Under the pieces are notes generated by a model. The model worked only from the letters and a program-made list of their open reading frames with translations, searched no databases and was not told the origin of the DNA. Positions 1,166 to 21,186 of a DNA stretch of 21,186 nt are shown here, piece by piece. Source of the stretch: a virus; IMG/VR virus record IMGVR_UViG_3300028610_002473, positions 1 to 21,186 of that record. One strand, 5' to 3'. Every line of letters begins with the position of its first letter. The stretch's first letter is position 1. Position numbers and translations under genes: made by a program.

Positions 1166-1194
1166 GATTTTTAAAATAAAGCGTTTTCATTTTC
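1163..1194 (-). repeat. 32-bp direct repeat, copy spanning the topoisomerase stop
   Basis: This is the second copy of the 32-bp repeat. Here it encodes the final residues (NALF) and TAA stop of the topoisomerase large subunit, the 5-base gap and the ATG of the short paralogue. It is the likely ancestral copy because its bases are still coding. Confidence 0.9.
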
Positions 1195-3042
1195 AATTTT
1201 ATGTCCTAAAATTTTTTCTTTTCGCTCTGAAGAATCTCCAGCAAACCAGGATGCTAACGTTGAACTATAATTTTCATCCTTTGTTAACTTAACTAAGTTT
1301 GGGTTGTTTATTATCTTTTCATATTCATCATCTTCTAATGATGCTAAACCTTTCTTGTATTCAATGTCCCATTTCTTTATATCTGATATTGAATTGACCC
1401 ATTGTTCATATTCATCATTTGTATAAAATTCTTTTTTAGATTTTTTGTTTTTAGCAACAACTAATGGAGTCATTACTTTGAATATTCTACCTTCATCAAA
1501 TAATTCTGGCCAATACTTTGCAAAGAAATTTATTAATGAAGCACTGATTGCATCTCCATCTGGATCAGCATCTACATATATGTATATTTTACCATACCTT
1601 AAATTCTTCGGTGCTTCTCCCAACTTCAATCCAATAGAACCCATTAAATTTTTAACTTCATCATTTTGAATAACTTTAGCATTTGTAAGCTCACTTACAT
1701 TTATGAACTTACCTTTTAATGGAAATGCACCCATTAATTGGGTGTTTCTAAATTTCCTTACTGCACTTAATGCTGACATACCTTCATAAATTCCAAGTAT
1801 ACAATATTTTCTATCATATTTCTTTTTGGCATCTATAAGTTTAAGAACCTTTGTTGATGATAAATTTTTATTTAATTTTTTAAGTTCTCTTCTTTCTTCT
1901 TCAAGTTTCTTTCTTCTAACCCATTCAAGTAAATTTTTAGTTATTTCAGATTCAAAAACTTCTTTCATGAACCTATCTGAAACTTTATGTTCAGTTCCAA
2001 AATCTGCTACACTTGATACAAGTTTTGTTTTCGTTTGAGAGTCAAACTCACTGTTTATGATACTTGCATTTATGAATATAAAAATGTGTTGTCTTATATC
2101 AGAAGGTCTTATTTCTAATTTAAATTTTTTCTTTACTTTTTCTCTTAACCAACCGATGATTTGATTCATTATATAATCAACGTGAGTTCCACCATCCTTT
2201 GTTTCAACTGAATTAACGTATGATACATGTTTGAATCCTCTTGTAGAATATCCAATAACTATTTCCCAATCTTTTGTTTTTTCATGGTATACTTTATCCA
2301 AATAAAGTTGGGCATATTCCTTAAACGTTCTAAATCTGTATAATTCACCGTTAAGATATATTTTTAATCTTGGATTTACAGCTGCAATATCAATTATACG
2401 TTTTTTTATAAGATCAATCGAGATTTCATCAATACCTTCATCCTGCATCGAAAACCTATTAAAATCGGGATGGTATGTTATTTCTGTAAAGTTCTTTTGA
2501 GATTTTGTTATCATTGGACGTGTTCTATCTTTCATATTATTAGTATATGTCTGATTGAACATGTTTGAACCATCTGCTGTTTTAACTACGAATTCACTAC
2601 TAAAAATATTTGTTACAGTGGCTCCAACCCCATGAAGTCCTGCAGTTCTTCTTTGTTCTGTATCATCAAAATTACTACCAGCTTTAAGATTTGTAAAAAT
2701 CATTTCAGGAATCCATTCTTTATGTTCAGGATGTTTTTTAACAGGTATACCTCCATTATCCCAAACTGATATTGTTCTTGTTGTTGTATCAACCTTTACT
2801 TTAATAGTATTTAATCTTGTATTTCTCGTGGATTCATCAACAGAATTTGAAATGATTTCATCAAACAATTTTATGAAACCTGGATTAAAAGTTACATTAA
2901 ATAATTTAAATTTCTTATCATCCATTAAATAAATTTCTGACTTATGAAATTTCGTTGAACCAATGTACATCCCAGGTCTTAACAAACAATGTTCAATATC
3001 ATCAAGTTTCTTGTACCTTAATAGCTCTTCTTTTTTTGTCAT
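1171..3042 (-). CDS. 39: DNA topoisomerase II large subunit (T4 gp39/gp60-type, single chain)
   Basis: This is the ATPase-TOPRIM subunit of a T4-type type II topoisomerase, which uses ATP to pass one DNA duplex through another during replication. The 623 aa hold the GHKL ATPase first: DEIISNSVDE at 61-70 (E62 general base, N66 Mg ligand), DNGGIP at 95-100, GLHGVGA at 135-141 and the transducer lysine in QTK (K338). TOPRIM follows: YEGMSA around 419-424 (E420), PLKGK at 441-445 and DADPDGD at 491-497. T4 itself splits this between genes 39 (about 516 aa) and 60 (about 160 aa); here it is one chain, as in several T4 relatives. The DNA-cleaving tyrosine subunit (gp52) is not in the window. Both a TATAAATA box and the TATATTTAY motif lie just upstream. 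The last codons are duplicated downstream as a relic. Confidence 0.95.
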   Translation of the reverse strand: MTKKEELLRYKKLDDIEHCLLRPGMYIGSTKFHKSEIYLMDDKKFKLFNVTFNPGFIKLFDEIISNSVDESTRNTRLNTIKVKVDTTTRTISVWDNGGIPVKKHPEHKEWIPEMIFTNLKAGSNFDDTEQRRTAGLHGVGATVTNIFSSEFVVKTADGSNMFNQTYTNNMKDRTRPMITKSQKNFTEITYHPDFNRFSMQDEGIDEISIDLIKKRIIDIAAVNPRLKIYLNGELYRFRTFKEYAQLYLDKVYHEKTKDWEIVIGYSTRGFKHVSYVNSVETKDGGTHVDYIMNQIIGWLREKVKKKFKLEIRPSDIRQHIFIFINASIINSEFDSQTKTKLVSSVADFGTEHKVSDRFMKEVFESEITKNLLEWVRRKKLEEERRELKKLNKNLSSTKVLKLIDAKKKYDRKYCILGIYEGMSALSAVRKFRNTQLMGAFPLKGKFINVSELTNAKVIQNDEVKNLMGSIGLKLGEAPKNLRYGKIYIYVDADPDGDAISASLINFFAKYWPELFDEGRIFKVMTPLVVAKNKKSKKEFYTNDEYEQWVNSISDIKKWDIEYKKGLASLEDDEYEKIINNPNLVKLTKDENYSSTLASWFAGDSSERKEKILGHKIENENALF

Positions 3043-3120: not shown

Positions 3121-3972
3121 TTATATATCTTTTATTTTGTGAATTAATTTAAATCGTTCAATTCTTAGATGTAATGGGGTTGTACTTTTAGTATTTTCTA
3201 AATCTTTTAAAAAATTTCTTATAACTTTTAGTGTAAAGTACGGTTTATTTTCATGTATATATCTATTGACATCCTCTAAGTTAAAAAATACTTCACGTTC
3301 TTTTGATTTAAATTTTTGCATAAAATTATTATCGAATTGAGATAAAGTTCTTGAAGCATATCCCCTTGAATTATGTTGATCTAAATAAAAAATAACATTA
3401 CCTGGAAATAATTCTTTACCGCTTTTAAATTTAAACAGTGGTGGTGGTGGTTCTAATTCATATATTTTAATATTAGATGTTGTTGTACGTAGAAATCGAG
3501 CCATATATACTCCTTTTATTAATCTAAAATGTGTTAAAATTCCCTGTCTGTATTGAACATCTTTACTTAAAATTTCTTTACCCATTTGTAAAGAAGTAAA
3601 ATATATTTTTTTGATATGTTTTGCAATAAAATCATTGTTTACCTGTCCCATGTTTTTTAATTCATCAGGAGAAAATAATCCACTTTTATCGATCTGTTTG
3701 TATCCCTTATCAGAAGCTTTGTATGTTATTTTTTTTACATTGTGCCAACTCTGTGGATTCAATTTGTATTCAAATTCCAACACCTTTATATCACCCTCAC
3801 ATATAGATAATATCTTTGAAGTTAACGGTAAAGAAACAACTGCTCCCCCATCATGTTCAAAATATAACATGTTTTTACTTGAATCAGGACTTTGTACCAA
3901 AAATTCCGACACTTCTGTTCCTTTTTTATGATTAAGAAATTTTTTCTTTAAAAATATTTTTGTATCTTTCAT
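3121..3972 (-). CDS. Unknown 283-aa protein, translationally coupled to the gene before it
   Basis: This soluble, basic 283-aa protein is not recognised. The first 90 residues look beta-rich, with alternating hydrophobics and an HDGGAVVSLPL segment near 40-50. A proline run (EPPPPLF) lies near residues 173-179, and the C-terminal 80 residues are helical and Lys/Arg-rich. There are no cysteine pairs, membrane segments or obvious catalytic motifs. Its ATG overlaps the stop of the 483-aa upstream gene in an ATGA, a standard arrangement for translational coupling, so the two products are probably made together and may act together. A structural or nucleic-acid-binding role would fit the charge pattern but is not demonstrated. 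Confidence 0.75.
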   Translation of the reverse strand: MKDTKIFLKKKFLNHKKGTEVSEFLVQSPDSSKNMLYFEHDGGAVVSLPLTSKILSICEGDIKVLEFEYKLNPQSWHNVKKITYKASDKGYKQIDKSGLFSPDELKNMGQVNNDFIAKHIKKIYFTSLQMGKEILSKDVQYRQGILTHFRLIKGVYMARFLRTTTSNIKIYELEPPPPLFKFKSGKELFPGNVIFYLDQHNSRGYASRTLSQFDNNFMQKFKSKEREVFFNLEDVNRYIHENKPYFTLKVIRNFLKDLENTKSTTPLHLRIERFKLIHKIKDI

Positions 3973-5420
3973 ACCTGTTGTAATTTTAATGATTTATAAA
4001 TTTTACGTAACGTGAGTAGACCATATCTATATTGATCTGTTAATTCATCTATCTGTTCTATTGCAAGATTAATGGGTAAATTCTTTTCAATATAAAGATT
4101 ATATACCCTTTCTAAAAGTTTTCCTGACATCATACACGTATACGTTTCTGTGTATATTTTACCATCTAATGAAATAGTTATTTTATATGGATTAAGTAAA
4201 AATCCAAAAATTTTTCCATTTCTATATGTATGCGTAAGTTTAGGTTTATTATCTAAAACATCATTAATGGCTTTAAACAACCGTTCAAGAGTTTTTACCA
4301 AATCTTCTGCTCTTTTCTTCTCATGACGACATAGTTGTATTTGTATTTTATTATAAATTCTATATGGCCAACTGTCATTAATTTTGGGTTCAAACTCTTC
4401 TATGTATGTTTTTTCTTTTCTTGTATCGAAAAGTTTTGTTTGTCTATATTTGATATAACCCGCTCTGAATTTAATAAAATCTTTTAATAATCTATAAAAT
4501 GTAAATATGGGAAATGAATAGTGTGTATAACTTCTTATACCATCTCGTTTTAAAAGTTGTATTTTTCGTTTGATTCCTAAAACTTCACCCCTGTAATTTG
4601 ATTTGTGTTTTATTTCTACTTTAAATGTGTATTTACCTATCGAAAAATCTTCTGGCATCCATACATTCCTTGTTAGATTTTTACCAGATATATTAACACT
4701 TGATTCTCTACTACCTGAATTAATAGCATCATATATACCATTCAAAAATACTTCATGATCTAAATGATATGAATTATCAGAATAATCATCTTTATTTTCA
4801 TCAATTTTTTTAATACCTCCATAATATTCTCCATAGTCATTCCAACAACAATCATATAATCTTGTCACACATCCGTTTTTTGAACAAATATATTTATCTT
4901 TTAGTGATGGTGTTTCATTTGGATCACATACGTGTTCAGATAACGTTTCTAATCTTTCTTGTCCACTTACAATAAGTTTATTAAAGCATACTGGACATAA
5001 CAAATTTTCTTTTTTATTTAAAGTTAATTCTGTATTTAAAGCTAAAATATCAAATCTCCTTTTTATAATTATAACTTGTTTTCTTTCATATAATGAATAA
5101 TCTCTATGTTGAACATTAAGATAAATTTCTCCTGTTTCTATATTTCTTAATACAACAAAACTATCATCATATCGTTTAATATTTTCTTCTCTATTAAATA
5201 AACTATCTCTATATTTATCAAAATCTTCTTCTTTAGGGTGATAATTATAGTAATAAAATCCTCTTTGTATAACAACACATTTTTTATTTTTAATTTCTTT
5301 TAAATAATTTGAGGTATTTGTATAATTCACTAAATCTCCATAATCTGCTTTTCCAAAAAGATAGATTGATTTTAAATAAATAAAAAATGCAGCAAGTCTA
5401 TCTTCTAAATAACTTAACAT
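3969..5420 (-). CDS. Unknown 483-aa protein with a zinc-ribbon-like cysteine cluster
   Basis: No known family is recognised. Cysteines are concentrated in one region: CPVC at 142-145, C165, C179, C184 and CC at 191-192. The CxxC and C-x4-C pairs suggest one or two zinc sites. Before them is a Tyr-rich segment (about 52-60). After them comes a long Lys/Arg/Tyr-rich region with helical character. The last 50 residues (LAIEQIDELTDQYRYGLLTLRKIYKSL) look like a small helical domain, perhaps helix-turn-helix-like, which is inference. The gene starts just after the strong terminator at 5444-5477, so a promoter must overlap that hairpin or transcription must read through. It ends in an ATGA overlap with the 283-aa gene. 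Confidence 0.78.
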   Translation of the reverse strand: MLSYLEDRLAAFFIYLKSIYLFGKADYGDLVNYTNTSNYLKEIKNKKCVVIQRGFYYYNYHPKEEDFDKYRDSLFNREENIKRYDDSFVVLRNIETGEIYLNVQHRDYSLYERKQVIIIKRRFDILALNTELTLNKKENLLCPVCFNKLIVSGQERLETLSEHVCDPNETPSLKDKYICSKNGCVTRLYDCCWNDYGEYYGGIKKIDENKDDYSDNSYHLDHEVFLNGIYDAINSGSRESSVNISGKNLTRNVWMPEDFSIGKYTFKVEIKHKSNYRGEVLGIKRKIQLLKRDGIRSYTHYSFPIFTFYRLLKDFIKFRAGYIKYRQTKLFDTRKEKTYIEEFEPKINDSWPYRIYNKIQIQLCRHEKKRAEDLVKTLERLFKAINDVLDNKPKLTHTYRNGKIFGFLLNPYKITISLDGKIYTETYTCMMSGKLLERVYNLYIEKNLPINLAIEQIDELTDQYRYGLLTLRKIYKSLKLQQV

Positions 5421-5507: not shown

Positions 5508-6773
5508 TTAATTTTTCTTAATTGACATATCGAGCGATAAGTCATCTGCATATTTCACCATCATCAAATTTATTAGATTTTGTGTGCCTAAGAATCCTGC
5601 ACCAGCTCCTACATTTTTTGTTCCTGCACCAGCTCCACCATAATTGATTGATGTTTTTGATACCCAATCACCTTTATATTCAGATATTGCTTTCGCATAA
5701 TTTGCATGAACTGTTACATATGTTTCAAGTTTTTGTTTCAGGGCTCCATCGGCAGTTATGATTAACTTTTTGTATTTCGCTTCACCCTCACCACGAAGAA
5801 TTTTTTCTTGTTTATAGAATGTTGCTTCTTCCATTGCAAGTCTAGCAACTTCTTTTTTCTGTTCAGCTAACGTAATTTCTTTAGCTTTAACAGCTTCCTG
5901 TTTCCATTTAGCAGTTGCAGCTGCAGCTTTACCTTCCTGTTCAGCTTTAATTGCATTCTGTTCAGCTTTCTTAGTTTCAGCAATAGATGTTTGTACATCC
6001 ATTATGGCTTTCTGTTGGGTTGCAATTTGATCTTCAACTAATTTATCATAAAGAACTTTATTGATAGAAAAGTTATATAAACCAATCTTATACATTCCTA
6101 TAGGAGATACTTCCTGACGGAAGTACTTTCCAGTAACAGTATCCATTAATGGTTCTACAACGGTAACTGTTTTCTCTTTTCCAGATAATGCATCAATTCC
6201 CTTTACATCTTGTGTTACAGTTTTATAAACACCATATGAAGCTTGATCATCAATAAAAGATATCAAATCATTTCTACGTTCTGCATATGATTCTTTTGAA
6301 CTCATAAGTGGACCCGTCATATATACGGATTTTTCAATAACTGTTCTTATGAGTTGTTGTTCAACTGCAACCTGTGATCCAAATAATGTGTGAATTTTCG
6401 TCATTGAAGGTATGTCCATCGGTAATGTCCAACGAACTGAACCGGAAATTTTTGCATGACCACCATCATTAAAACGAACTTTGATACTTTGATCTGTTTT
6501 ACTACCTTGATCTTCGTGTGCAGAGAACCAATATTGAGATTCTTTCTTGTAATGTGTAGGAGTTCCTAAGTTTTGATAGTATAAACCTGGCTGGAAATAA
6601 AAGTGCAGGTCACCATCAATAGGATCCTGAATTACAACGATTTCATCGGCACCAACCTTTTCCGCTAATCTGCTTGATAAAGCAATAGCAACGATTATAC
6701 CGACAAGTACTACAATTCCAAGAAAGGTCCTTGCGGCTTTTCCCCTCTTGTTTTTTGTTTGTGTTTGTTCCAT
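5508..6773 (-). CDS. Membrane-anchored SPFH/band-7 (prohibitin-like) protein
   Basis: This 421-aa protein has the layout of the SPFH/band-7 family, whose members are anchored at one end and oligomerise into ring-like scaffolds on membranes. A basic N-terminus (about 1-16) leads into one membrane segment at 17-33, followed by the start of the SPFH domain (VGADEIVVIQDPIDGDLHFYFQPG, 40-63, where GLYYQNL follows). A long Ala/Glu/Lys-rich coiled coil covers about 235-330, as in prohibitins and flotillins. The C-terminus carries a Gly/Ala-rich patch (YGGAGAG...VGAGAG, about 378-393). No enzymatic motif is seen. The preceding gene is another small membrane protein, and a strong terminator follows. 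Roles such as membrane remodelling, protease control or exclusion of other phages are possible but unproven. Confidence 0.86.
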   Translation of the reverse strand: MEQTQTKNKRGKAARTFLGIVVLVGIIVAIALSSRLAEKVGADEIVVIQDPIDGDLHFYFQPGLYYQNLGTPTHYKKESQYWFSAHEDQGSKTDQSIKVRFNDGGHAKISGSVRWTLPMDIPSMTKIHTLFGSQVAVEQQLIRTVIEKSVYMTGPLMSSKESYAERRNDLISFIDDQASYGVYKTVTQDVKGIDALSGKEKTVTVVEPLMDTVTGKYFRQEVSPIGMYKIGLYNFSINKVLYDKLVEDQIATQQKAIMDVQTSIAETKKAEQNAIKAEQEGKAAAATAKWKQEAVKAKEITLAEQKKEVARLAMEEATFYKQEKILRGEGEAKYKKLIITADGALKQKLETYVTVHANYAKAISEYKGDWVSKTSINYGGAGAGTKNVGAGAGFLGTQNLINLMMVKYADDLSLDMSIKKN

Positions 6774-7476: not shown

Positions 7477-8688
7477 TTAATAAGTCCAAAATGGACGTTT
7501 AAATTCTGGTTTGATTTTTTCGAATATAGCAGTTTGATAATTTGTTTTATCATATATGGCAAGTATGAGACCCTTTGAAAAACCTTTATATGATTCATTA
7601 ACCCAATTAAAAAAATCGTTTTTTTCTTTTTGTAATCTATTTTTTTCTTGTTCTAATCTATTATAAAAATTTTTGTCTATATTACCAATTTTTTTGAATT
7701 TTGATAATAAACTTTTAACTTCACCTAATGTAAATTGTCTTTCTTTTAAATTTTGGCATCTCTCATATTCTTTTACAATTTTAATATGTAAATTTTCTAT
7801 ATTACTAAATTTAATTTTTAATTCATTATATTCTTTAGAACACCAATCATGAATTTCATCAGGTAATTCTTTTACGTATTGTTCTAATTTTATATCTTCC
7901 TTAAATGCTTTCCAAATAGTTCGACTTGATACATGAAACATCAAAGAATGTAATCTTATATAATCATCAAATTTAATTTTTATTCTATGTCCATCTTCGA
8001 ATAAAATTACGAAACCTTCTTTATTTTCAAGATTTAGTTTTTGTAACTTTGTTATTTTTTCTGTTAAAGAAAGATCATTAAATTCTTGTTTCATTTTGTA
8101 TTCTTTTGAGAGTTCAAATCCAGGATTGTAATGTTCCAGATCCATTTCTTTTCCAGTTTTTGTTTCTATTATTGCTAACAAAACCAATTTTTCTTCTTCA
8201 CCATAATTAACAACTATTCTATTCTCTGGAAATATGATTTCAAAAAGATAAGTATATTTTGGCTTCATTGCAAACAAAGCATCAACATTATCTCTATAAA
8301 GTATCTCATTTGCTTTATCTGCAAAATCAGAATCGAATGAACCTCTAGATGCTATATACCATTTATCATTTAATGTATAAGATATTCCCATTGAACCATC
8401 CATTTTATTGAATAGTTTATATTTCAAGTTAACCCTATCCCGAACTGGTTGTCCATTAAATTCATCATAATTAAAAAACTTTTTAAAGGGTCTTGAAATA
8501 ACATTTAAATTTTCATCAAGAATCAATCCTCGACATTGTAATGTTATATCGTTCCAATGTCTATCATATTGACAATGTTTTGTATAATTATAAATGTATA
8601 GGGAAGTTTCTGGATGTTTATTGATTGATATGTATCTATCCTTTATTAGTTGTTTTAATTCTTCTTCTTTACCTTCAAAGAATTTCAT
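7477..8688 (-). CDS. rnlA: RNA ligase, T4 Rnl1 type
   Basis: This ATP-dependent RNA ligase belongs to the nucleotidyltransferase family and joins RNA 3'-OH and 5'-phosphate ends through an enzyme-AMP intermediate. In T4 it reseals tRNA cut by host anticodon nuclease. Taking M at 8688 gives 403 aa (T4 Rnl1 has 374). CRGL at 52-55 and SRPFKKFFN at 65-73 match T4's CRGIMF and SRPMEKFFN. Motif I is KMDGS with AMP-accepting K95 (T4 K99). The shared ASRGS, FEIIFPENRIVVNY, EGFV and KIKFDDYIRLH segments follow T4 in order. The C-terminal 140 residues are helical and Lys-rich. A start at 8739 is also open, but 8688 has the A-rich leader. It overlaps the CCA-enzyme gene by 14 bases. No polynucleotide kinase-phosphatase is in the window. 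Confidence 0.93.
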   Translation of the reverse strand: MKFFEGKEEELKQLIKDRYISINKHPETSLYIYNYTKHCQYDRHWNDITLQCRGLILDENLNVISRPFKKFFNYDEFNGQPVRDRVNLKYKLFNKMDGSMGISYTLNDKWYIASRGSFDSDFADKANEILYRDNVDALFAMKPKYTYLFEIIFPENRIVVNYGEEEKLVLLAIIETKTGKEMDLEHYNPGFELSKEYKMKQEFNDLSLTEKITKLQKLNLENKEGFVILFEDGHRIKIKFDDYIRLHSLMFHVSSRTIWKAFKEDIKLEQYVKELPDEIHDWCSKEYNELKIKFSNIENLHIKIVKEYERCQNLKERQFTLGEVKSLLSKFKKIGNIDKNFYNRLEQEKNRLQKEKNDFFNWVNESYKGFSKGLILAIYDKTNYQTAIFEKIKPEFKRPFWTY

Positions 8689-9880
8689 TATTTTTTTTGC
8701 TTTTAACATATTCCAATAACTTATTTCTATCATTATCAATCTGTCTTGATAATATCATTCCAACTATTTCATTAAGTATAATTCCAACAATTTCAGATTC
8801 TTCACCAATTATATCAATTACATCTTTACCATCGATTTTTATTTCTGACATCTTTTTTGGAAATTCACCACTTCTAAATTGATTGATTGGACCTTCAAAA
8901 ATAGAATCTATTGAAATATAATCTAAAATATCTTCTACTACAGCTATTGATTGCCATAACAATATTCTATTTTTAAATCTAACTTTTTCAGAGTTTAAAT
9001 TCAATGTTTGAATAAGTTTCAATCTTTTAGCAGTATGTTTGTCTCCCTTTAATTTTTCGATATAAAGTTGAGATATATCTCCTTTTGCATGACTTATTAA
9101 CTGATAGAAAAAATCTACTTTGTTATTTGTTGTCAACGTTCGAGTCTTACTACTACGGCTTCCAAATATAACATTAAACAATCCAGTATTTAACAATATG
9201 TTTATACCCTTAAAATGATCTCCTTTTTCAAAGATTTTTTCCAATTCATCATATATTCGTTCAGACTTTATTTTAGATATCAATCTTACATTATTTACTA
9301 TAAATCTATAAGTTTTTGAATCACATCTAAAATTCAATCTAGCCATAAATTGAACGCATCTTAAAAGACGTAATGGGTCATCCAAAAATGCATCAAAGTT
9401 TGTAGCCTTTATTATTCCACTAATTGTATCATAAACTCCTTTAAAAGGATCAATTACTTTACCTGTAAGATCAACAGCAATTGAATTCATCGTAAAATCT
9501 CTACGTCCAAGATCTTCTTCAATCGTTAAATTTGGATCTGAAAATACATCAAAGTTTGTGTGGTCAATTTCTCCTTCTCCCTTATTTTCTTTTCTAGGTA
9601 ATGATATATCTATACTTTCACTTTCTCCTGTAGGTATAAATTTTAAAACTCCAAATCTATCACCAACATTTGTTCTTTTTACTGAACCGTATTTTTTAAG
9701 GATATTTTCTATTTCAGTAAATGTTTTCTTTCGTACAAGAATATCAATATCCTTAGAATCTTTTTTTATTATTGTATCTCTAACACAACCACCAACAAAA
9801 TAAATATCAGAAGGATTTCCCAATTCTTTTACAAATTCTTTATCGGAAAAACCTTCTGTTAATTTTGAAAAATCCATCAT
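8675..9880 (-). CDS. cca: CCA-adding-type tRNA nucleotidyltransferase
   Basis: This class II polymerase-beta-type nucleotidyltransferase should add or restore CCA at tRNA 3' ends. The 401 aa show, in order, the GGCVRD loop at 30-35, the metal-binding DID at 44-46 with a third carboxylate probably D91 in SIDIS, RRDFTMNSIA at 126-135 (NTP selection in this family) and DDPLRLLRCVQFMARL at 167-182 (head/neck motif). A divergent helical C-terminal half follows. The layout is that of bacterial CCA-adding and related poly(A) polymerase enzymes, which cannot be separated by motif alone. Poly(A) polymerase or an A-only enzyme is therefore the alternative. The 14-base overlap with the RNA ligase gene argues for a joint job in tRNA repair. 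Two adjacent ATGs (9880 and 9877) exist, and the first is used here. Confidence 0.92.
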   Translation of the reverse strand: MMDFSKLTEGFSDKEFVKELGNPSDIYFVGGCVRDTIIKKDSKDIDILVRKKTFTEIENILKKYGSVKRTNVGDRFGVLKFIPTGESESIDISLPRKENKGEGEIDHTNFDVFSDPNLTIEEDLGRRDFTMNSIAVDLTGKVIDPFKGVYDTISGIIKATNFDAFLDDPLRLLRCVQFMARLNFRCDSKTYRFIVNNVRLISKIKSERIYDELEKIFEKGDHFKGINILLNTGLFNVIFGSRSSKTRTLTTNNKVDFFYQLISHAKGDISQLYIEKLKGDKHTAKRLKLIQTLNLNSEKVRFKNRILLWQSIAVVEDILDYISIDSIFEGPINQFRSGEFPKKMSEIKIDGKDVIDIIGEESEIVGIILNEIVGMILSRQIDNDRNKLLEYVKSKKNNEIL

Positions 9881-10201: not shown

Positions 10202-10666
10202 TTATTCGTCTACTCTTTTTCTTATATTAATAAAACTATCATTACTGGCATCTACTGCATCAAATGAAATAATATCAGTTACTTTAGCAATACCGTTTTC
10301 GTCAACATGACCTATACATCTTGGTCGTATTACTACATAATCTTTATCAATAAGTTCAGAAAGTATTTTACCAGATGGAGTAGCCAGTATTTCTATTTCA
10401 CCCTTTATCTTACTTTTAAAAACTTTTATTTTAGTAATTTTGTGAGAAACATATTTCAAAGCAATTGAACCAAAATCATTTCTTTCTACAAGATTATTTT
10501 TATCTGTATGTAACAATTCACCAAGGGCTGTTTTGTTTTCTATTTTTAATTTGTAATCATTAATTATGTTTTCATCTATACTATCTTCTGTATATGTTCT
10601 ATTATTTAAATTTTTTTTATTGAAATAAAGAAATGTTCTAGTTTTTTTATTCTTTTTATTTTTCAT
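10202..10666 (-). CDS. T4 gp21-like prohead-protease fold, apparently lacking the catalytic serine
   Basis: The 154 aa follow the order of the T4 prohead protease gp21 (peptidase family S77), which trims scaffold and capsid proteins during head maturation. NNRTYTEDSI at 21-30 parallels T4's NKRLYPKRIL. ALGELLHTD at 48-55 parallels ALGELNHP, with H53 at the catalytic histidine position. FDAVDASNDSF at 135-145 parallels the VDAVWGPSAPDA segment. The serine motif SSRGLG, however, is replaced by RPRCIG at 115-119, with proline where the nucleophile should be. It may be an inactive structural relative, or C118 may act instead. The protein is shorter than T4 gp21 (about 212 aa). It follows a TATAAATA box, consistent with late expression. 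Confidence is good for the fold and low for the role. Confidence 0.6.
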   Translation of the reverse strand: MKNKKNKKTRTFLYFNKKNLNNRTYTEDSIDENIINDYKLKIENKTALGELLHTDKNNLVERNDFGSIALKYVSHKITKIKVFKSKIKGEIEILATPSGKILSELIDKDYVVIRPRCIGHVDENGIAKVTDIISFDAVDASNDSFINIRKRVDE

Positions 10667-11127: not shown

Positions 11128-14100
11128 TTAACCAATTTCAAAATTTTCATTGACAATTCTTACGGTCAATTCTGTATCAAGTTTATTGATAACGGCTTGC
11201 ATCTTATCAGCCAATACTTTAGTGTCAGAAGTTATTCCAGAATCTGTTCTTCCAGTTGTATCATTAGCTGCATAAATTTCTTTTCTAACTTCAGGAATAA
11301 TTTCAAGTTTCTTATCTGGATTTTCTTTTTTGATGAATCTTTCAATAAGTTCAAGAGCCATTTCAATTCCAGTTTTAATACCTTCAGCAATCTGTTCCCC
11401 AATATCGGCATCATCACTGAATTTATAAATTTCTGCAAGTGTAGAAAATGTTTGATTCATCTTATCTAATTTCACATCATCTAAAGTATCTACAGCAGCA
11501 GAGAATTTTTGCATCGATACTGCCATATCTGCGAAGTTTTTCGCTATGTTATCTATCTTATTATCTTTTTTAGATAATTTAACGATTGCATTTACAAAAT
11601 TTTCTGGTATTCTACTCAAGAAATTCAATCCAACGTTTGCTGCATCCATTTCTTTGGATAACATAGAACCAGCTTTAACAAAAGCAGAAGGTATTGCTAA
11701 TATGACATCTTCTATTGTTTGTTTTATTCTATTTACATCAGGTATATCTAATATTGTTCTTACAAAATCAGCCAATTCAAACAAACCATCTGTTATATTA
11801 CTAACAACCTTTTTACCTTTATCTATGGCACTTTTACCCAAGAACCATTTTCTTTTTGCATTTGGATCTTGTCCTAATTCTCCAAGTGTACTAGAAAGTG
11901 AACTAACTATCATTTTAATATTAGCACTAACTTTTTCCATATCTGCTGGTGTTAAAGCAACTGAAGTTCCTTTAGAATCTATGAATGTTAAATTAGCAAA
12001 ATCTTTAACACCCATAGCTATCTCAGTAAGTACGTTACCCATACCTTTAACCATTCTGATACCCTTAGATACATCATCAGTTCCTGTAATAGCCATTATT
12101 GCTCCAACCAATCCTGAACCTCCAAACTTTTTACCTATTGCTCCAAATGAATCACTAACTTTACTTAACACAATATCTATCATATATGTTAGATCATTAG
12201 GATCTATAGTTTTCATGATATCTGCAAAACTCTTTATACCCTTTCCTATAAGAACAAGAGCACCTCCTGCCATTATCATTACAGCAGAACCGATCAAAAT
12301 AGCTGGTGATATCAATCCTGCTCCTGCCATTGCCAATCCTACTGCTCCAATAAGTGCAGCAATCTGTCCAATGAATTCCCAAGGTTTATCTACTATAGAG
12401 AATGATTTAGCAAATTTATTTACTCCTACACCTACCAATATGAGAGCCAATCCTGCAACTACCATTGCTGCTGAACCCAATGTAATGAATCCAGGTAATG
12501 GTCCCAATCCAGCTATTGCCATAACAACTCCTAATGTAAGAATTACTGCTCCCATTATCGCAATCATCTGCCATGGTTTATCAATCATAGAAATAGCTTC
12601 TGCAAACTTTTTAACTCCAATTCCTATAAGTACTATTGCTGCACCTGCAAACATCATTGCCAGTGCTCCAGTAATAACTGCTTTTTTACCCAATTTACCA
12701 ATTACCCAAAATGCTATTCCAAATACCATCATCGCTAATGCTGTAGGTAAGATCCATTCTATCGGTATGCTTTTAAACTTACTCGGTAGAAGTGAAAATT
12801 CCCATGCTATAGCAACAACTGCACCTGCTATAAGTGCCAATATACCAGCAGCTTTACCTGCTTTTTTAATATTCAATTGTTGATTGATTTTCATCAATAA
12901 TGCAATAGATAGAGCAAAAAGAACCATCGTTATTCCAGTAGATATAACCCATATAATTGGAGGAGCTTTCATTTTATTTCCAGGTGGTAACAACATGAAT
13001 TCCCATGCTATGATAACTACTGCTGCTGCAAGTATACCCATCATTGCACCTGCTTTAAATATATCTTTCCATTTTCCTTTTATAGCAGTTGACATGAGTT
13101 TAACAGAAAATGCAAACAGTGCCATTGTAATGCCTGCCCTAAGTGTCCATACTAAAGGTGGAGATTTCATCTGATTATCTGGTGGTAAAAATTTAAATAT
13201 CCATGCTGTCGCAACTATACCAGTAGCTAATGCTGCCATAGCTAAACCTGCTAATACAACACCAACAAGAGTCATTTTGTTCTTACCTGCAGTTAATGAT
13301 TTTGCGATAGCTTTTAATGAATATGAAAATAACAACACTGCAATACCTGCTTTAATAGTCCACCAAAGTGGAGGAGCTTTTAAAACATTATCTTCAGGAA
13401 AAGTCTGAAAAATTTCAGCTACTGCTCTAACTGCAAGTGCAGTTAATACCAAAGCAAATGCAGAAAGTACAATATCTTTTGCCGTTACTCTTCCTTTCAT
13501 AGGTACATCCAATATTTTATTACCAGTTTTAACGGCAGATTTTCCACTTAATGCTGATATAATTATAGAAATAGCTTTTGAAAATATAATTAATGTTAAA
13601 CCTGTAAGAATAATCCAACCAAGTGGTGGAGCTTTATATTTACTTTCCTCTGGAAGTTTCTGTAGTATATGTGCTACTCCAACAATAGATAATGCAATCA
13701 ATGGTATAGCAGCAACTGCCATAACTAAAGCAGCAGGTTTAATTTTTACAGGTTTAAAGGTACTTCTTATCGAAATTGCTGATTTTTTACCTTGAAATGA
13801 CGATATTAATGAACCAATTGCAGTTGCATATAAATACATTGCTAAACCTACTCTTATGATCCACCAATACGGTGGAGCTTTAAGTTTATCTTCATTTGGA
13901 AACAACATGAATATCCATGCTGTTGCAACAACTGATGCAGAAAGTGCCATCATCATTCCAAACATTCCAGCAGCTTTTCCCCCAGCAAATTTTTTCTTTT
14001 TAATTTCTTCTCTTGTTGTTATACTAAATACTCCAGTACCAGTTTCTTTACTTAAAACTTCTAAATGTTTTGACATTCTTAAAAATGACATAGAAAAAAA

Positions 14101-15216
14101 CAATAACGATAAACCAACCTTAAATACCCAATCAATTGGAGGCGCTTTAAATTTATTTGGAAGTGCCATGAATATCCAAGCAGTTGCAACTACTGTTATT
14201 GCAAGCACTGGTATAATAAGTAATGATGCACCCAACGATTGCATCATACTCATTGGTTGTACAAGTGAACCGGATACCTTACCTGCTATACTTGAAACAG
14301 TTCTTATTGCAACTGTGAAAGCATCTCCCCTAAGTGCTCTTAATACATTTTTAAATATCATTACTATTGGAATCAATGATGCTGCTACAACTGCTGCAAT
14401 AGCCAATTTCTTAAGATCAATGCTAGGCATCAATTTTAAAACATTTGCAGTTGCTACCAATGAAAGAGCTATCATGGGAAATATCAACAATGCTCCCATA
14501 GAAGATACTGCAATTATTCCAGCATTTATAACATTGCCCAATGCTCCCATTATGCCCTTACCTGTTAACATTGAACTCAACGATTTAATAAAATATGCTG
14601 TTATTGGTACAAAAATTGCTGCAATAGCAATTCCTGTTATCATCTGTTTGGTTGATACATCAGGCATATCTGAAAATATCCTAGATATAGACTGTACAGT
14701 CATTGCCAACATAACCAGAGTCAGTGATAGTATGGCTGATTGTGCAATCGATATATCGTATCCCTTAGAATAGATCATTGCTATTGATCCAAACATTGTT
14801 AACATTACTAGGGACATCGTTATTGCCTGTTCCTTACTTATTTCTGAAAGTTGTCCAAGACCCTTTCCAAATGCAAAGAATGCACCACCAAGTATTACCA
14901 ATATCTTTCCAAAATCTACTATTTTATCACCACCTATATCACCTGATATAATACTTTTAGTAATATCACTATCATCCCTTTTGGCCTTTATTGCTTTTCC
15001 GCCAAGTGATTTAAGAATACCATTAAGAATTTTTGTTTGTGTCTGTAATTCGCTTTTTATAGAAGTAATCCCACTTATAATGTTTTCAGAAATATTCAGC
15101 TGTATAGTTTCTACATTTTTCTCTGATTTAGAAGCTAACTTCTCAATTTTATCCAATACATTAATTATAACTTCTTGGTTCTTAATTATAGTTTTATCAC
15201 CACTACCTCTTGCCAT
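11128..15216 (-). CDS. Tape-measure-like tail protein with hydrophobic tandem repeats
   Basis: This 1362-aa protein is the longest gene of the tail cluster, the position and size expected of a tape-measure protein, which fixes tail length and travels inside the tube. The N-terminal 75 residues are helical and coiled-coil-like. Residues about 100-1000 are a long series of hydrophobic helices with few charges. Two repeat families can be read: seven copies with WxF..LP...K(A/S)PP..W....G (KAPP at 357, 446, 528, 613, 684, 750, 815), and three copies of LIG.GVKKFA...(V/I)DKPW starting near 863, 927 and 989. The last 360 residues are soluble and helical. With 0.15 nm per residue the protein would span about 200 nm. 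A membrane role at DNA injection is also possible. No lytic enzyme motif was seen. Confidence 0.8.
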   Translation of the reverse strand: MARGSGDKTIIKNQEVIINVLDKIEKLASKSEKNVETIQLNISENIISGITSIKSELQTQTKILNGILKSLGGKAIKAKRDDSDITKSIISGDIGGDKIVDFGKILVILGGAFFAFGKGLGQLSEISKEQAITMSLVMLTMFGSIAMIYSKGYDISIAQSAILSLTLVMLAMTVQSISRIFSDMPDVSTKQMITGIAIAAIFVPITAYFIKSLSSMLTGKGIMGALGNVINAGIIAVSSMGALLIFPMIALSLVATANVLKLMPSIDLKKLAIAAVVAASLIPIVMIFKNVLRALRGDAFTVAIRTVSSIAGKVSGSLVQPMSMMQSLGASLLIIPVLAITVVATAWIFMALPNKFKAPPIDWVFKVGLSLLFFSMSFLRMSKHLEVLSKETGTGVFSITTREEIKKKKFAGGKAAGMFGMMMALSASVVATAWIFMLFPNEDKLKAPPYWWIIRVGLAMYLYATAIGSLISSFQGKKSAISIRSTFKPVKIKPAALVMAVAAIPLIALSIVGVAHILQKLPEESKYKAPPLGWIILTGLTLIIFSKAISIIISALSGKSAVKTGNKILDVPMKGRVTAKDIVLSAFALVLTALAVRAVAEIFQTFPEDNVLKAPPLWWTIKAGIAVLLFSYSLKAIAKSLTAGKNKMTLVGVVLAGLAMAALATGIVATAWIFKFLPPDNQMKSPPLVWTLRAGITMALFAFSVKLMSTAIKGKWKDIFKAGAMMGILAAAVVIIAWEFMLLPPGNKMKAPPIIWVISTGITMVLFALSIALLMKINQQLNIKKAGKAAGILALIAGAVVAIAWEFSLLPSKFKSIPIEWILPTALAMMVFGIAFWVIGKLGKKAVITGALAMMFAGAAIVLIGIGVKKFAEAISMIDKPWQMIAIMGAVILTLGVVMAIAGLGPLPGFITLGSAAMVVAGLALILVGVGVNKFAKSFSIVDKPWEFIGQIAALIGAVGLAMAGAGLISPAILIGSAVMIMAGGALVLIGKGIKSFADIMKTIDPNDLTYMIDIVLSKVSDSFGAIGKKFGGSGLVGAIMAITGTDDVSKGIRMVKGMGNVLTEIAMGVKDFANLTFIDSKGTSVALTPADMEKVSANIKMIVSSLSSTLGELGQDPNAKRKWFLGKSAIDKGKKVVSNITDGLFELADFVRTILDIPDVNRIKQTIEDVILAIPSAFVKAGSMLSKEMDAANVGLNFLSRIPENFVNAIVKLSKKDNKIDNIAKNFADMAVSMQKFSAAVDTLDDVKLDKMNQTFSTLAEIYKFSDDADIGEQIAEGIKTGIEMALELIERFIKKENPDKKLEIIPEVRKEIYAANDTTGRTDSGITSDTKVLADKMQAVINKLDTELTVRIVNENFEIG
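12217..12681 (-). repeat. Three protein-level tandem repeats (GxGVKKFA-DKPW family)
   Basis: Residues 846-1000 hold three units spaced about 63 residues apart. The first two share (I/V)GxGV(K/N)KFA followed by (I/V)DKPW; the third is more diverged (GKGIKSFADIMKTIDPND). Each unit is preceded by a Gly/Ala/Met-rich hydrophobic helix. Confidence 0.8.
12712..14199 (-). repeat. Seven protein-level tandem repeats (WxF-LP-KAPP-W family)
   Basis: Residues 340-835 of the tape-measure-like protein contain seven units of 65-89 residues. Each has a hydrophobic helix ending in A(W/H/E)xF, then (L/F)P, a short charged loop, K(A/S)PP or KSIP, W and a second hydrophobic helix with a central Gly. Spacing shrinks from 82-89 to 65-66 residues along the chain. 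Confidence 0.85.
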
Positions 15217-18260: not shown

Positions 18261-18809
18261 TTATGTCAACTCTTCTGTCCAGTGATCGGATCTAAATGCT
18301 ATAGTCATCTCCTGTGGATCTGCAGTGTCGTAATCGAGAGCATCAAGTGTTTCCAATGTTCCAGTTGGGAAACAATCTTTAAATGTTACCTTTCTAAAAA
18401 TATCACCCTTTCTGTTGTATTGAACAACTATCATTGTTCCAACATATTCTGTCTTTAATCCCATTTCACCAGTATGAGGATTGTAAATAATCGTGTACCA
18501 ATCTCTAAATTGTTTGTATAAATACATTTCATTTGCAATATTAAGGTTTAACGTAAATACAACACTTAAATCTACAAATGTTTGAGCAGGCATACCTGCA
18601 AAACTTCTATCAGTGAACTTGAACCTTTGACCAACTGGATCTATCGATGGATTAACACCCTGCATACCTGATATACTTTTTACATGTTCTAATATAAGAG
18701 CAGCATCATGGTTTAATGGTGTCAAAAATGTTATTTCGAATAAATTTGAGTGAACTACTTCAGATAAATTTATCGATGCTTTAGATTGGTCATAGTGTGG
18801 TAATGGCAT
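18261..18809 (-). CDS. 19: Tail tube protein (T4 gp19-like)
   Basis: This 182-aa protein forms the inner tail tube of contractile phages; T4 gp19 is of similar length (163 aa). The sequence follows the family pattern: an N-terminal segment ending in a beta strand (SNLFEITFLTP), a central VKSISGMQG segment, DPVGQRFKFTDRSFAG, then VFTLNLNIANEMYLYKQFRDWYTIIYNPHTGEMG at about 85-118, an immunity-type beta fold, and the closing DALDYDTADPQEMTIAFRSDHWTEEL. It lies between the sheath and the baseplate genes, as in T4. It follows the 64-aa gene by 50 bases. An AGATAGAGAAATG leader is the closest thing to a Shine-Dalgarno here. The terminator after it isolates the tube message. Confidence 0.93.
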   Translation of the reverse strand: MPLPHYDQSKASINLSEVVHSNLFEITFLTPLNHDAALILEHVKSISGMQGVNPSIDPVGQRFKFTDRSFAGMPAQTFVDLSVVFTLNLNIANEMYLYKQFRDWYTIIYNPHTGEMGLKTEYVGTMIVVQYNRKGDIFRKVTFKDCFPTGTLETLDALDYDTADPQEMTIAFRSDHWTEELT

Positions 18810-19128: not shown

Positions 19129-21186
19129 TTAAATAAATTCTCCAGTTGAAATTACACCAGTTTTAAGAATAGTTGTTCTATGAACAAGTATTTCTAAGCC
19201 TTTAACTGGTTCAACATAAGTATCTAAGATACCAATATTTTTATCAATCACTTCAGAAGTATTATTTGTTTCATCCATTATGTTTCTAAAATCATATACT
19301 CCATTATCTGCTTGTATTTGATTCATAAAATTATCTGCAAGAGTTTTAATCTCTAATCTTGTTTGAGGTGTGTTGAATTCAAAGATGAAATTCTTAAGAA
19401 TTGCTTCTATACCATCTTGAAGATATATCAATACTTCTCTTACATGTATACTTGACAATGCAGATTTGATATTTTGTTGTCCTGTTTTATTTGCAAAAAT
19501 AACTATTCCAGTTCCATTTTGGAATATAATTGGATTAATACCAAATGGTTCTAACCAATCTCTATCAATTCTATCGAAATTGTATTCAATTCCAACAACT
19601 CCTCTACCTGCAATTATGCCTCTTCTTGCACCTGCAACAATTGACCATGGAAGAGCTGCTACATATTTATCAATAAAATTATTTGATATGTAACCTGCTG
19701 GTGGAACTGTTACGTTTCTACCTCTATCTCTTACCACTAAGTATGGTGCATAATATCCTGCAAAGTTTGAACCAGATGTGATACCTGGTAGTGTATAAAG
19801 TAAAGTTGGATTTTTTGTTAAATCTCCACCTTCTGAAATCATTTTAGTACTTACCAATCCATTTGCATCCAAGAATAATGGAGTTGTTGAATCAGAAAAG
19901 TTTTTCATAGATGGTGCATTAAGAATAGCAAAAGCATTTTGTCTTTCTTTTGCAAGATTTGCTAAAATAGCTTTTGAACTTGATTCTATACCCAATCCAA
20001 ATGAATCTACAATATATCTAAATGTGATATTATCTTTATCAATTAATGCATTGAATAATTGAGTTCCTGATAATGTATCATAAAGAATATTGTTTTGTTG
20101 ATCCATTGTATTATTTGGTAAATGATATGATGTATGTGTAAATCCATTCATTGAAGTTAATGTATAATAATCTACCCAATTTGTGATAGCATCATAAACT
20201 TCTATAGAATCTACACTTGCAATATCTTTAACAAGAACTGGACCAACAGTTGTAACTGTTAGAACTGTTCCAGTTTTAGATATTGTAACTATTCTAGTTA
20301 ATCTAGATGGTCCAGTTGTTCCACCATCATCACCAACCAAGAACATTCCTGGAGCTAAATCAGCTTCATAATCAGTATGTACTGTTACAACATTTGCTAA
20401 TGTACCTGAAGTAGCCGGTATAGTTTTATTTAAAGCTCCTTTAAGTGTTTGAACATTAAGTGTTCCAAGAGCAAGAGCAACATCACTTGAATCAAAGAAT
20501 ATTTCCAAATAATCATAAGCAATAGCTCCTGTAAAATCTGCAGTTTGATATGCAGTAACATTTACAACAGGAATTGAATAAGTAGTATCTGAAATTAATG
20601 ATTCAGTATAACCTGCGGTATTCATAATTTTTGTACTTGTTGATATATTGAAATCTAAGTATCCAACTTCTCCTACTTGAGCATCTCCACTACTATCAGC
20701 ATCCCATACTATTCTATCTCCATCAGTTAATGTACCCAATGTATATGCAGTATATAAACTGTTAGAATAAGATGACATGAGTGTGCTTGAAGCAGCTCCT
20801 GTAGAACTATCAACATTATAATCTATATCTCCGTAATTAACATATTTTAAAGAATTACCTGCTAATGCACTATCAAATGCTGAATCTGTTACTCCACCAG
20901 TTGCACTGAATTCAATTAATGCAGTAGTTGCAGTAACTTGTTTTGTAATTACTGGAACAAATGTACCAGCATCACTCAAGAAATAAGAACCAAGTACTCT
21001 AGGGCTTAGTGTATTTGCTCTAAAAGTAGATGCAACAATTGCAGCATAAAAATCTGGATTAGTTGCAATATCAATTGTCATCAAAATATTTCCAGAAGTT
21101 GCAGTTGTTGGTGATATACCAATAGTATCTGTTATTGTGTTAGATGTAACATATGTTTGATCATATTCCAAATCTGATTTGATAGT
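19129..21186 (-). CDS. 18: Tail sheath protein (T4 gp18-like), 5' end missing
   Basis: This is the contractile tail sheath, whose subunits ring the tube and contract to drive it into the host. The frame is open to the window edge. The only candidate start near the edge is a TTG at 21171, and the codons before it (TIKSD) read through, so the true start is probably outside. The visible part is about 685 aa. The C-terminal half has the family pattern: RGRNVTVPPAGY, WSIVAGARRGIIAGRGV, DRDWLEPFGINPIIFQNGTGIVIFANKT, then LIYLQDGIEAILKNFIFEFN and TLADNFMNQIQADNGVYDF. The first half is Thr/Ser/Ala-rich and variable, probably surface domains. It is the first gene of the visible tail module and ends at a terminator. 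Confidence 0.93.
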   Translation of the reverse strand, partial: TIKSDLEYDQTYVTSNTITDTIGISPTTATSGNILMTIDIATNPDFYAAIVASTFRANTLSPRVLGSYFLSDAGTFVPVITKQVTATTALIEFSATGGVTDSAFDSALAGNSLKYVNYGDIDYNVDSSTGAASSTLMSSYSNSLYTAYTLGTLTDGDRIVWDADSSGDAQVGEVGYLDFNISTSTKIMNTAGYTESLISDTTYSIPVVNVTAYQTADFTGAIAYDYLEIFFDSSDVALALGTLNVQTLKGALNKTIPATSGTLANVVTVHTDYEADLAPGMFLVGDDGGTTGPSRLTRIVTISKTGTVLTVTTVGPVLVKDIASVDSIEVYDAITNWVDYYTLTSMNGFTHTSYHLPNNTMDQQNNILYDTLSGTQLFNALIDKDNITFRYIVDSFGLGIESSSKAILANLAKERQNAFAILNAPSMKNFSDSTTPLFLDANGLVSTKMISEGGDLTKNPTLLYTLPGITSGSNFAGYYAPYLVVRDRGRNVTVPPAGYISNNFIDKYVAALPWSIVAGARRGIIAGRGVVGIEYNFDRIDRDWLEPFGINPIIFQNGTGIVIFANKTGQQNIKSALSSIHVREVLIYLQDGIEAILKNFIFEFNTPQTRLEIKTLADNFMNQIQADNGVYDFRNIMDETNNTSEVIDKNIGILDTYVEPVKGLEILVHRTTILKTGVISTGEFI

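Follow-up and report, generated by a model that had tools for sequence, protein, structure and literature searches.

In bacteriophage T4, Pnkp and Rnl1 repair tRNA-Lys and so counter PrrC, and the C-terminal third of T4 Rnl1 confers its preference for tRNA. For jumbo phages, the portions of Iyer et al. (2021, PMC7824862) that treat RNA repair describe a repertoire in which ATP-grasp Rnl1 ligases and CCA-adding nucleotidyltransferases occur jointly. On the host side, Cas12a3 is a CRISPR effector, first studied from a Bacteroidetes bacterium, that strips the CCA tails of tRNAs; it was reported in 2026, it cuts 2-4 nucleotides in, up to the discriminator base, and its authors call phage resistance "yet unknown" (PMC12851939). 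Our full-text literature search found no CCA-Rnl1 operon and no phage CCA counter-defence, and an earlier description is still possible; the same search on CCA and Rnl1 returned PMC7824862 alone for the repair idea and PMC12851939 alone for CCA cleavage.

The DNA analysed here (the window, 21,186 nucleotides) carries a gene for a CCA-adding enzyme and a gene for an Rnl1-family ligase side by side (Table 1). From the protein family matches of its ORFs, the window is a piece of a T4-like myovirus, with a base composition of 28.8% G+C. It lies over its whole length, at 100% identity, inside IMG/VR contig 3300009788_005228 (39,693 bases, examined as loci L022 and L023), which is the longest available contig for this phage and represents an incomplete genome; terminase and clamp-loader genes follow on it just past the window. 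Since all annotated genes of the window are on the minus strand, the co-orientation of the CCA gene and the ligase gene carries no information. Among the other ORFs, 11128-15216 (minus strand) adjoins the tail genes and encodes 1362 amino acids, in which hydrophobic segments are repeated many times and KAPP/W units recur; it has no PHROG match and is probably the tape measure protein, one whose repeat structure is unusual. Two adjoining minus-strand ORFs, 311-865 and 887-1165, have like N-terminal halves (KKLKVI..DD....YSY) and are likely a tandem duplication. Downstream of the ligase gene, at a distance of a few genes, 5508-6773 (minus strand) encodes an SPFH/Band-7 (prohibitin-like) membrane protein (phrog_11908), and an SPFH-like ORF (3816-4643) also stands in locus L156, directly before a kinase-Rnl1-CCA cluster.

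Table 1. Positions of the gene pair and of landmark genes in the window.
Feature	Positions	Strand	Remarks
T4 Rnl1-family ATP-dependent RNA ligase	7477-8688	-	403 aa from ATG at 8688; family, motif and fold matches
Class II CCA-adding tRNA nucleotidyltransferase	8675-9880	-	401 aa; domain, motif and fold evidence
Overlap of CCA gene 3' end and ligase gene start	8675-8688	-	14 nt, ATGAAATTCTTTGA
Topoisomerase II large subunit	1171-3042		
Prohead-protease homologue	10202-10666		
Tail tube	18261-18809		
Tail sheath	19129-21171		

The two identities proposed in the earlier note, a CCA enzyme and a T4 Rnl1-type ligase, were borne out by domain, PHROG, PDB and motif evidence. The CCA enzyme has a PolyA_pol head (PF01743, 8e-22, 125 of 126 positions) followed by a PolyA_pol_RNAbd neck (PF12627, 2e-11), and it matches the tRNA nucleotidyltransferase family phrog_2244 at 1e-53. 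Motif A reads GG..RD and KDIDI (DxD), motif B RRDFTMN, motif D DDPLRLLR (DDxxR-type) and motif E SERI. The key positions are the catalytic D44/D46 of the DxD, R126-R127-D128 of motif B and D167-D168-x-x-R171 of the nucleotide-recognition motif, (E/D)DxxR; D44, D46, the RRD triplet, D168 and R171 are invariant in our alignment with relatives (A4). The ligase matches RNA_lig_T4_1 (PF09511) at 2e-20 and 74 bits (cut-off 28.3) and phrog_562 at 5e-62; against TIGR02308, the T4 RnlA family, it scores 93 bits, below the equivalog cut-off of 242. Its best PDB match, by sequence (2e-18) and by fold, is T4 Rnl1, and its KMDGS and motif III, IV and V residues (K95, D97, G98, S99, E150, E224, G225, K237 and K239) are invariant among relatives. 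The catalytic motifs of both enzymes look intact, as far as their sequences tell. The phmmer alignment of the ligase to T4 Rnl1 stops at residue 253, and the C-terminal third diverges. This region is all-helical in the predicted structure, and Foldseek aligns the full length with T4 Rnl1, but with a TM score of 0.48 and an rmsd of 26 on a weak model (pLDDT 71, pTM 0.54), so we make no claim on the C-terminal domain. The closest cellular Rnl1 relatives of the ligase are from Bacteroidota, which is a hint, not proof, as to the phage host.

The 14-base overlap of the two genes is real, given a ligase start at ATG 8688; the in-frame alternatives, ATG 8709 and TTG 8739, would give overlaps of 35 and 65 nucleotides. 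The span that the earlier note gave for the pair covers the CCA gene and leaves out the ligase. Overlaps of 4-20 nucleotides occur in 5 of the 22 adjacent gene pairs in the window, and the ligase gene overlaps its downstream neighbour as well, by 13 nucleotides. With overlaps this common among neighbouring genes, we rejected the overlap as weak evidence of coupling: it is ordinary in this genome, and therefore the pairing was judged from relatives instead.

Seen from the CCA side, the relatives lend the pairing little support. The nearest relatives of the CCA enzyme are 35-40% identical, and no closer one was found save on the contig that holds the window. In the nearest relatives having both genes, the CCA and Rnl1 genes are 70-260 kb apart: LR756504.1 (636 kb), the near-identical G014 (288 kb), G011 (265 kb) and several records of 245-370 kb. 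Seven of nine large genomes, chosen because they carry a related CCA gene, have Rnl1 as well. Flanks of nearly the full 6 kb were at hand for 64 related CCA loci; within them Rnl1 occurs only at the window's own locus and at L111, the same record as L036, and two in 64 is about the level of chance. A concatenated query of the CCA enzyme and the ligase against 50,697 phage records gave, among the matches listed, one clear linked case, Aeromonas phage Ahp1, with the genes about 1 kb apart; with a concatenated query built from the L036 proteins, no linked pair stood among the matches listed. Of additional note, Vibrio phage EniLVp02 (PP209424; L284, 5989-8269) has two tRNA nucleotidyltransferase genes in tandem, possibly a split into CC-adding and A-adding enzymes.

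The view from the ligase side is different. Within 6 kb of 80 related Rnl1 loci there is a P-loop kinase at 56, a cREC cyclic-phosphate domain at 37 and a CCA gene at 11. These 11 loci, with the window and L111 not counted, belong to 3 of 26 ligase clusters (70% identity), in one of which the CCA gene is on the opposite strand. Since a CCA gene is present in 1 of 18 large Rnl1-bearing phage records, and about 12 kb was inspected of roughly 200 kb, rough arithmetic (no test) puts the chance expectation below one such cluster. At L264 (610-3861, plus strand), a HAD phosphatase, a P-loop kinase, the CCA enzyme and Rnl1 follow one another in one direction; the same row, spaced more loosely, is found at L140 (883-7026, plus strand) and L141. 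It looks like a repair operon made of a split Pnkp, a CCA enzyme and a ligase. L264 is catalogued as a Pseudomonas MAG contig and appears to come from the same phage group as L140. In L036 (110 kb, 24 tRNAs) the order is Rnl1, a T4-type kinase-phosphatase (Pnkp) and CCA, and in L156 it is kinase, Rnl1 and CCA. On a 355-kb Anaerolineae contig (L260, 5938-8606, plus strand), Rnl1 is followed, after a gap of 86 bp, by a CCA/HD-domain enzyme, and two further Anaerolineae Rnl1 loci, L254 and L261, have no CCA gene. Because gene orders differ between these lineages, the CCA-Rnl1 association probably arose repeatedly. The earlier note had called the window's genes a tRNA-repair pair and proposed that the pair be sought in relatives: the nearest relatives with both genes, at 35-40% identity, have them unlinked, which goes part of the way towards the refutation that the note allowed for, but such neighbourhoods recur in unrelated lineages, and it is this clustering of CCA, Rnl1 and kinase/phosphatase genes in unrelated phages, rather than the overlap, that supports a tRNA-repair association.

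The earlier note had also taken the missing Pnkp as a clue to the kind of nuclease that the phage faces. Searches with PF25109 and local profiles found no kinase, phosphatase or cREC gene in 39.7 kb of an incomplete genome, and the proposed search for tRNA genes found none in the same 39.7 kb. We rejected the step from an absent Pnkp to a type of nuclease, since just this fragment of the genome has been seen, and a kinase lies near most related Rnl1 loci. End-healing enzymes are present in most of the tight cases, so that the missing Pnkp of the window is a poor sign of special chemistry.

Based on these comparisons, we incline to the view that the CCA enzyme and the ligase are co-expressed and serve as complementary halves of tRNA repair during infection. 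What is directly supported is the two protein families, their complete motifs, the overlapping arrangement and the recurrence of the association; the association of the two known phage tRNA enzymes is real and probably functional, and the best reading is that the pair belongs to the known phage tRNA-repair repertoire. In the mechanism we propose, host defence nucleases would cut or trim tRNAs, and Rnl1 would reseal broken tRNAs with 3'-OH/5'-P ends. Where needed, the ends would be healed by a kinase/phosphatase, either from elsewhere in the phage genome or from the host. Where tRNAs of the host or the phage had lost their 3' CCA, or had it trimmed, the CCA-adding enzyme would regrow it, and the tRNAs could then be charged again. 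In favour of this reading are the family, motif and fold matches of the two enzymes, the close clustering on one strand of CCA, Rnl1 and end-healing genes in unrelated phages, the presence of Rnl1 in most of the large CCA genomes together with the kinase-Rnl1-cREC cassettes of the ligase relatives, and the parts of PMC7824862 that place Rnl1 and CCA-adding nucleotidyltransferases together in RNA repair. The existence of a CCA-removing Cas12a3 of Bacteroidetes source also favours it, the closest cellular Rnl1 relatives of the ligase being Bacteroidota. It is weakened by the unlinked genes in the CCA relatives and the common overlaps, by the lack of a CCA gene in most Rnl1 phages, and by the 39.7 kb, where searches for kinase, phosphatase, cREC and tRNA genes turned up nothing.

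The main rival reading, which is quite possible but which we consider less likely, is that the two enzymes act apart: the CCA enzyme would mature or maintain tRNAs, that is, phage tRNAs without an encoded CCA or host tRNAs undergoing CCA-end turnover, the ligase would repair RNA, and their adjacency would be an accident of gene order in a packed late region. The unlinked genes of the nearest relatives and the frequent overlaps in the window fit this. The CCA-carrying relatives, with 1-55 tRNAs per genome, encode CCA in just 14 of 197 tRNAs, against 48 of 168 in Rnl1 phages without a CCA gene. However, 33 of those 48 tRNAs come from one genome, G005, which drives the pooled gap, and genome by genome the fractions show no significant difference (p = 0.37); the tRNA counts therefore neither support nor exclude maturation. 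Most tRNAs of phages that have no CCA gene are likewise encoded without CCA, so that a missing CCA alone calls for no phage enzyme. The absence of any tRNA gene from the 39.7 kb, and the position of CCA genes beside Rnl1, kinase and phosphatase genes in several unrelated lineages, also argue against separate roles. G005 itself (IMGVR 3300023184_000026, 297 kb) has its own CCA in 33 of 34 tRNAs, unlike the other sampled phages, and carries a tmRNA gene (L015, 7047-7437).

In a more specific version of the repair reading, which we regard as plausible but unlikely, the pair is a counter-defence, directed at nucleases such as Cas12a3 whose trimming or cutting at the acceptor end of tRNAs would produce 3'-OH/5'-P termini. 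Ends of this kind would need no kinase-phosphatase: the CCA enzyme could regrow the tail, or the ligase could rejoin it. A caution is that the Cas12a3 cut, at 2-4 nucleotides in, goes up to the discriminator base, a loss that CCA addition by itself would not make good. More and more defences that act by destroying tRNAs are being recognised, and CCA-clipping Cas12a3 is without a known phage answer (PMC12851939). A phage CCA-adding enzyme is the obvious candidate, all the more so when it is linked to an RNA ligase; if the counter-defence were true, the pair would supply the resistance that the Cas12a3 authors describe as "yet unknown". The window, L036, L156, L140/L264 and L260 offer natural CCA-Rnl1 modules, some accompanied by end-healing enzymes and some not.

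It is improbable that the ligase homologue is mainly a tail-fibre attachment factor, the second activity of T4 gp63, a role that would account for its having head and tail genes as neighbours, with the CCA gene as a passenger. The phrog_562 annotation does read "RNA ligase and tail fiber protein attachment catalyst", and the pair adjoins the prohead-protease homologue, in the same block as the tail tube and sheath genes. Nevertheless, every nucleotidyl-transfer residue is kept in the ligase, and attachment would need none of them; moreover, the ligase relatives are found in kinase-Rnl1-cREC repair cassettes, not among tail genes.

For the nucleotidyltransferase of the pair, PRK13299, the CCA tRNA nucleotidyltransferase family, ranks first of nine NCBIfam families over the full length (3e-46), with a score of 158 bits that lies below the equivalog cut-off of 290. 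The predicted structure (mean pLDDT 78, with body residues 295-328 at low confidence) matches the Bacillus CCA-adding enzyme 1miv with a Z of 29.6 over 368 residues, the whole chain including body and tail, and E. coli poly(A) polymerase (PAP) with a lower Z of 22.0 over 312 residues; Foldseek concurs, with matches to CCA-adding enzymes along the entire model. The bacterial PAP signature [LIV][LIV]G[RK][RK]Fx[LIV]h[HQL][LIV] (Martin and Keller, in the form quoted by PMC8208693) is absent from the enzyme, which has VGDRFGVLKFI at that place, and G[RK][RK]F.[LIV] occurs in none of 100 matches in related loci. The missing signature, the full-length PRK13299 match and the 1miv fold match therefore favour a CCA-adding enzyme, as the earlier note had supposed. 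That it is instead a poly(A) polymerase which works on the 3' ends of mRNA and plays no part in repairing tRNA is very hard to credit against this evidence, even though the two kinds of enzyme share a superfamily, PF01743 takes its name from poly(A) polymerase and there is also a match to TIGR01942 pcnB (3e-25).

Compared with the class II CCA-adding enzymes (1miv, PRK13299, phrog_2244), the CCA enzyme of the window is alike in fold, domain order and motifs; it is 22% identical to 1miv, and its motif D is DDxxR in place of EDxxR. The nearest phage relatives of the ligase (L006, L007 and L008; 38-42% identical) are of the same ligase subfamily and form a kinase-Rnl1-cREC cassette, with the P-loop kinase before the ligase and cREC_REC after it; the window has neither, and the CCA gene stands upstream instead. 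The jumbo-phage repertoire holds the same two enzymes, and cREC is tied to ligases there; the described portions of PMC7824862 report co-presence, with no overlapping CCA-Rnl1 pair, and the ligase-associated nucleotidyltransferase is RlaP. In comparison with T4 Pnkp-Rnl1, the ligase is of the Rnl1 family, has the full set of ligase motifs and has T4 Rnl1 as its top PDB and fold match, whereas the 39.7-kb fragment holds no Pnkp and the partner gene is that of a CCA-adding enzyme. Since the CCA enzyme and Rnl1 are each already known in jumbo phages, what is new here is their coupling at the gene level, a modest novelty. The scheme we propose would thus recall the T4 Pnkp-Rnl1 pathway joined to the CCA-adding nucleotidyltransferase of jumbo phages, as the latter appears in the repair portions of Iyer et al., with both brought together in one overlapping gene pair.
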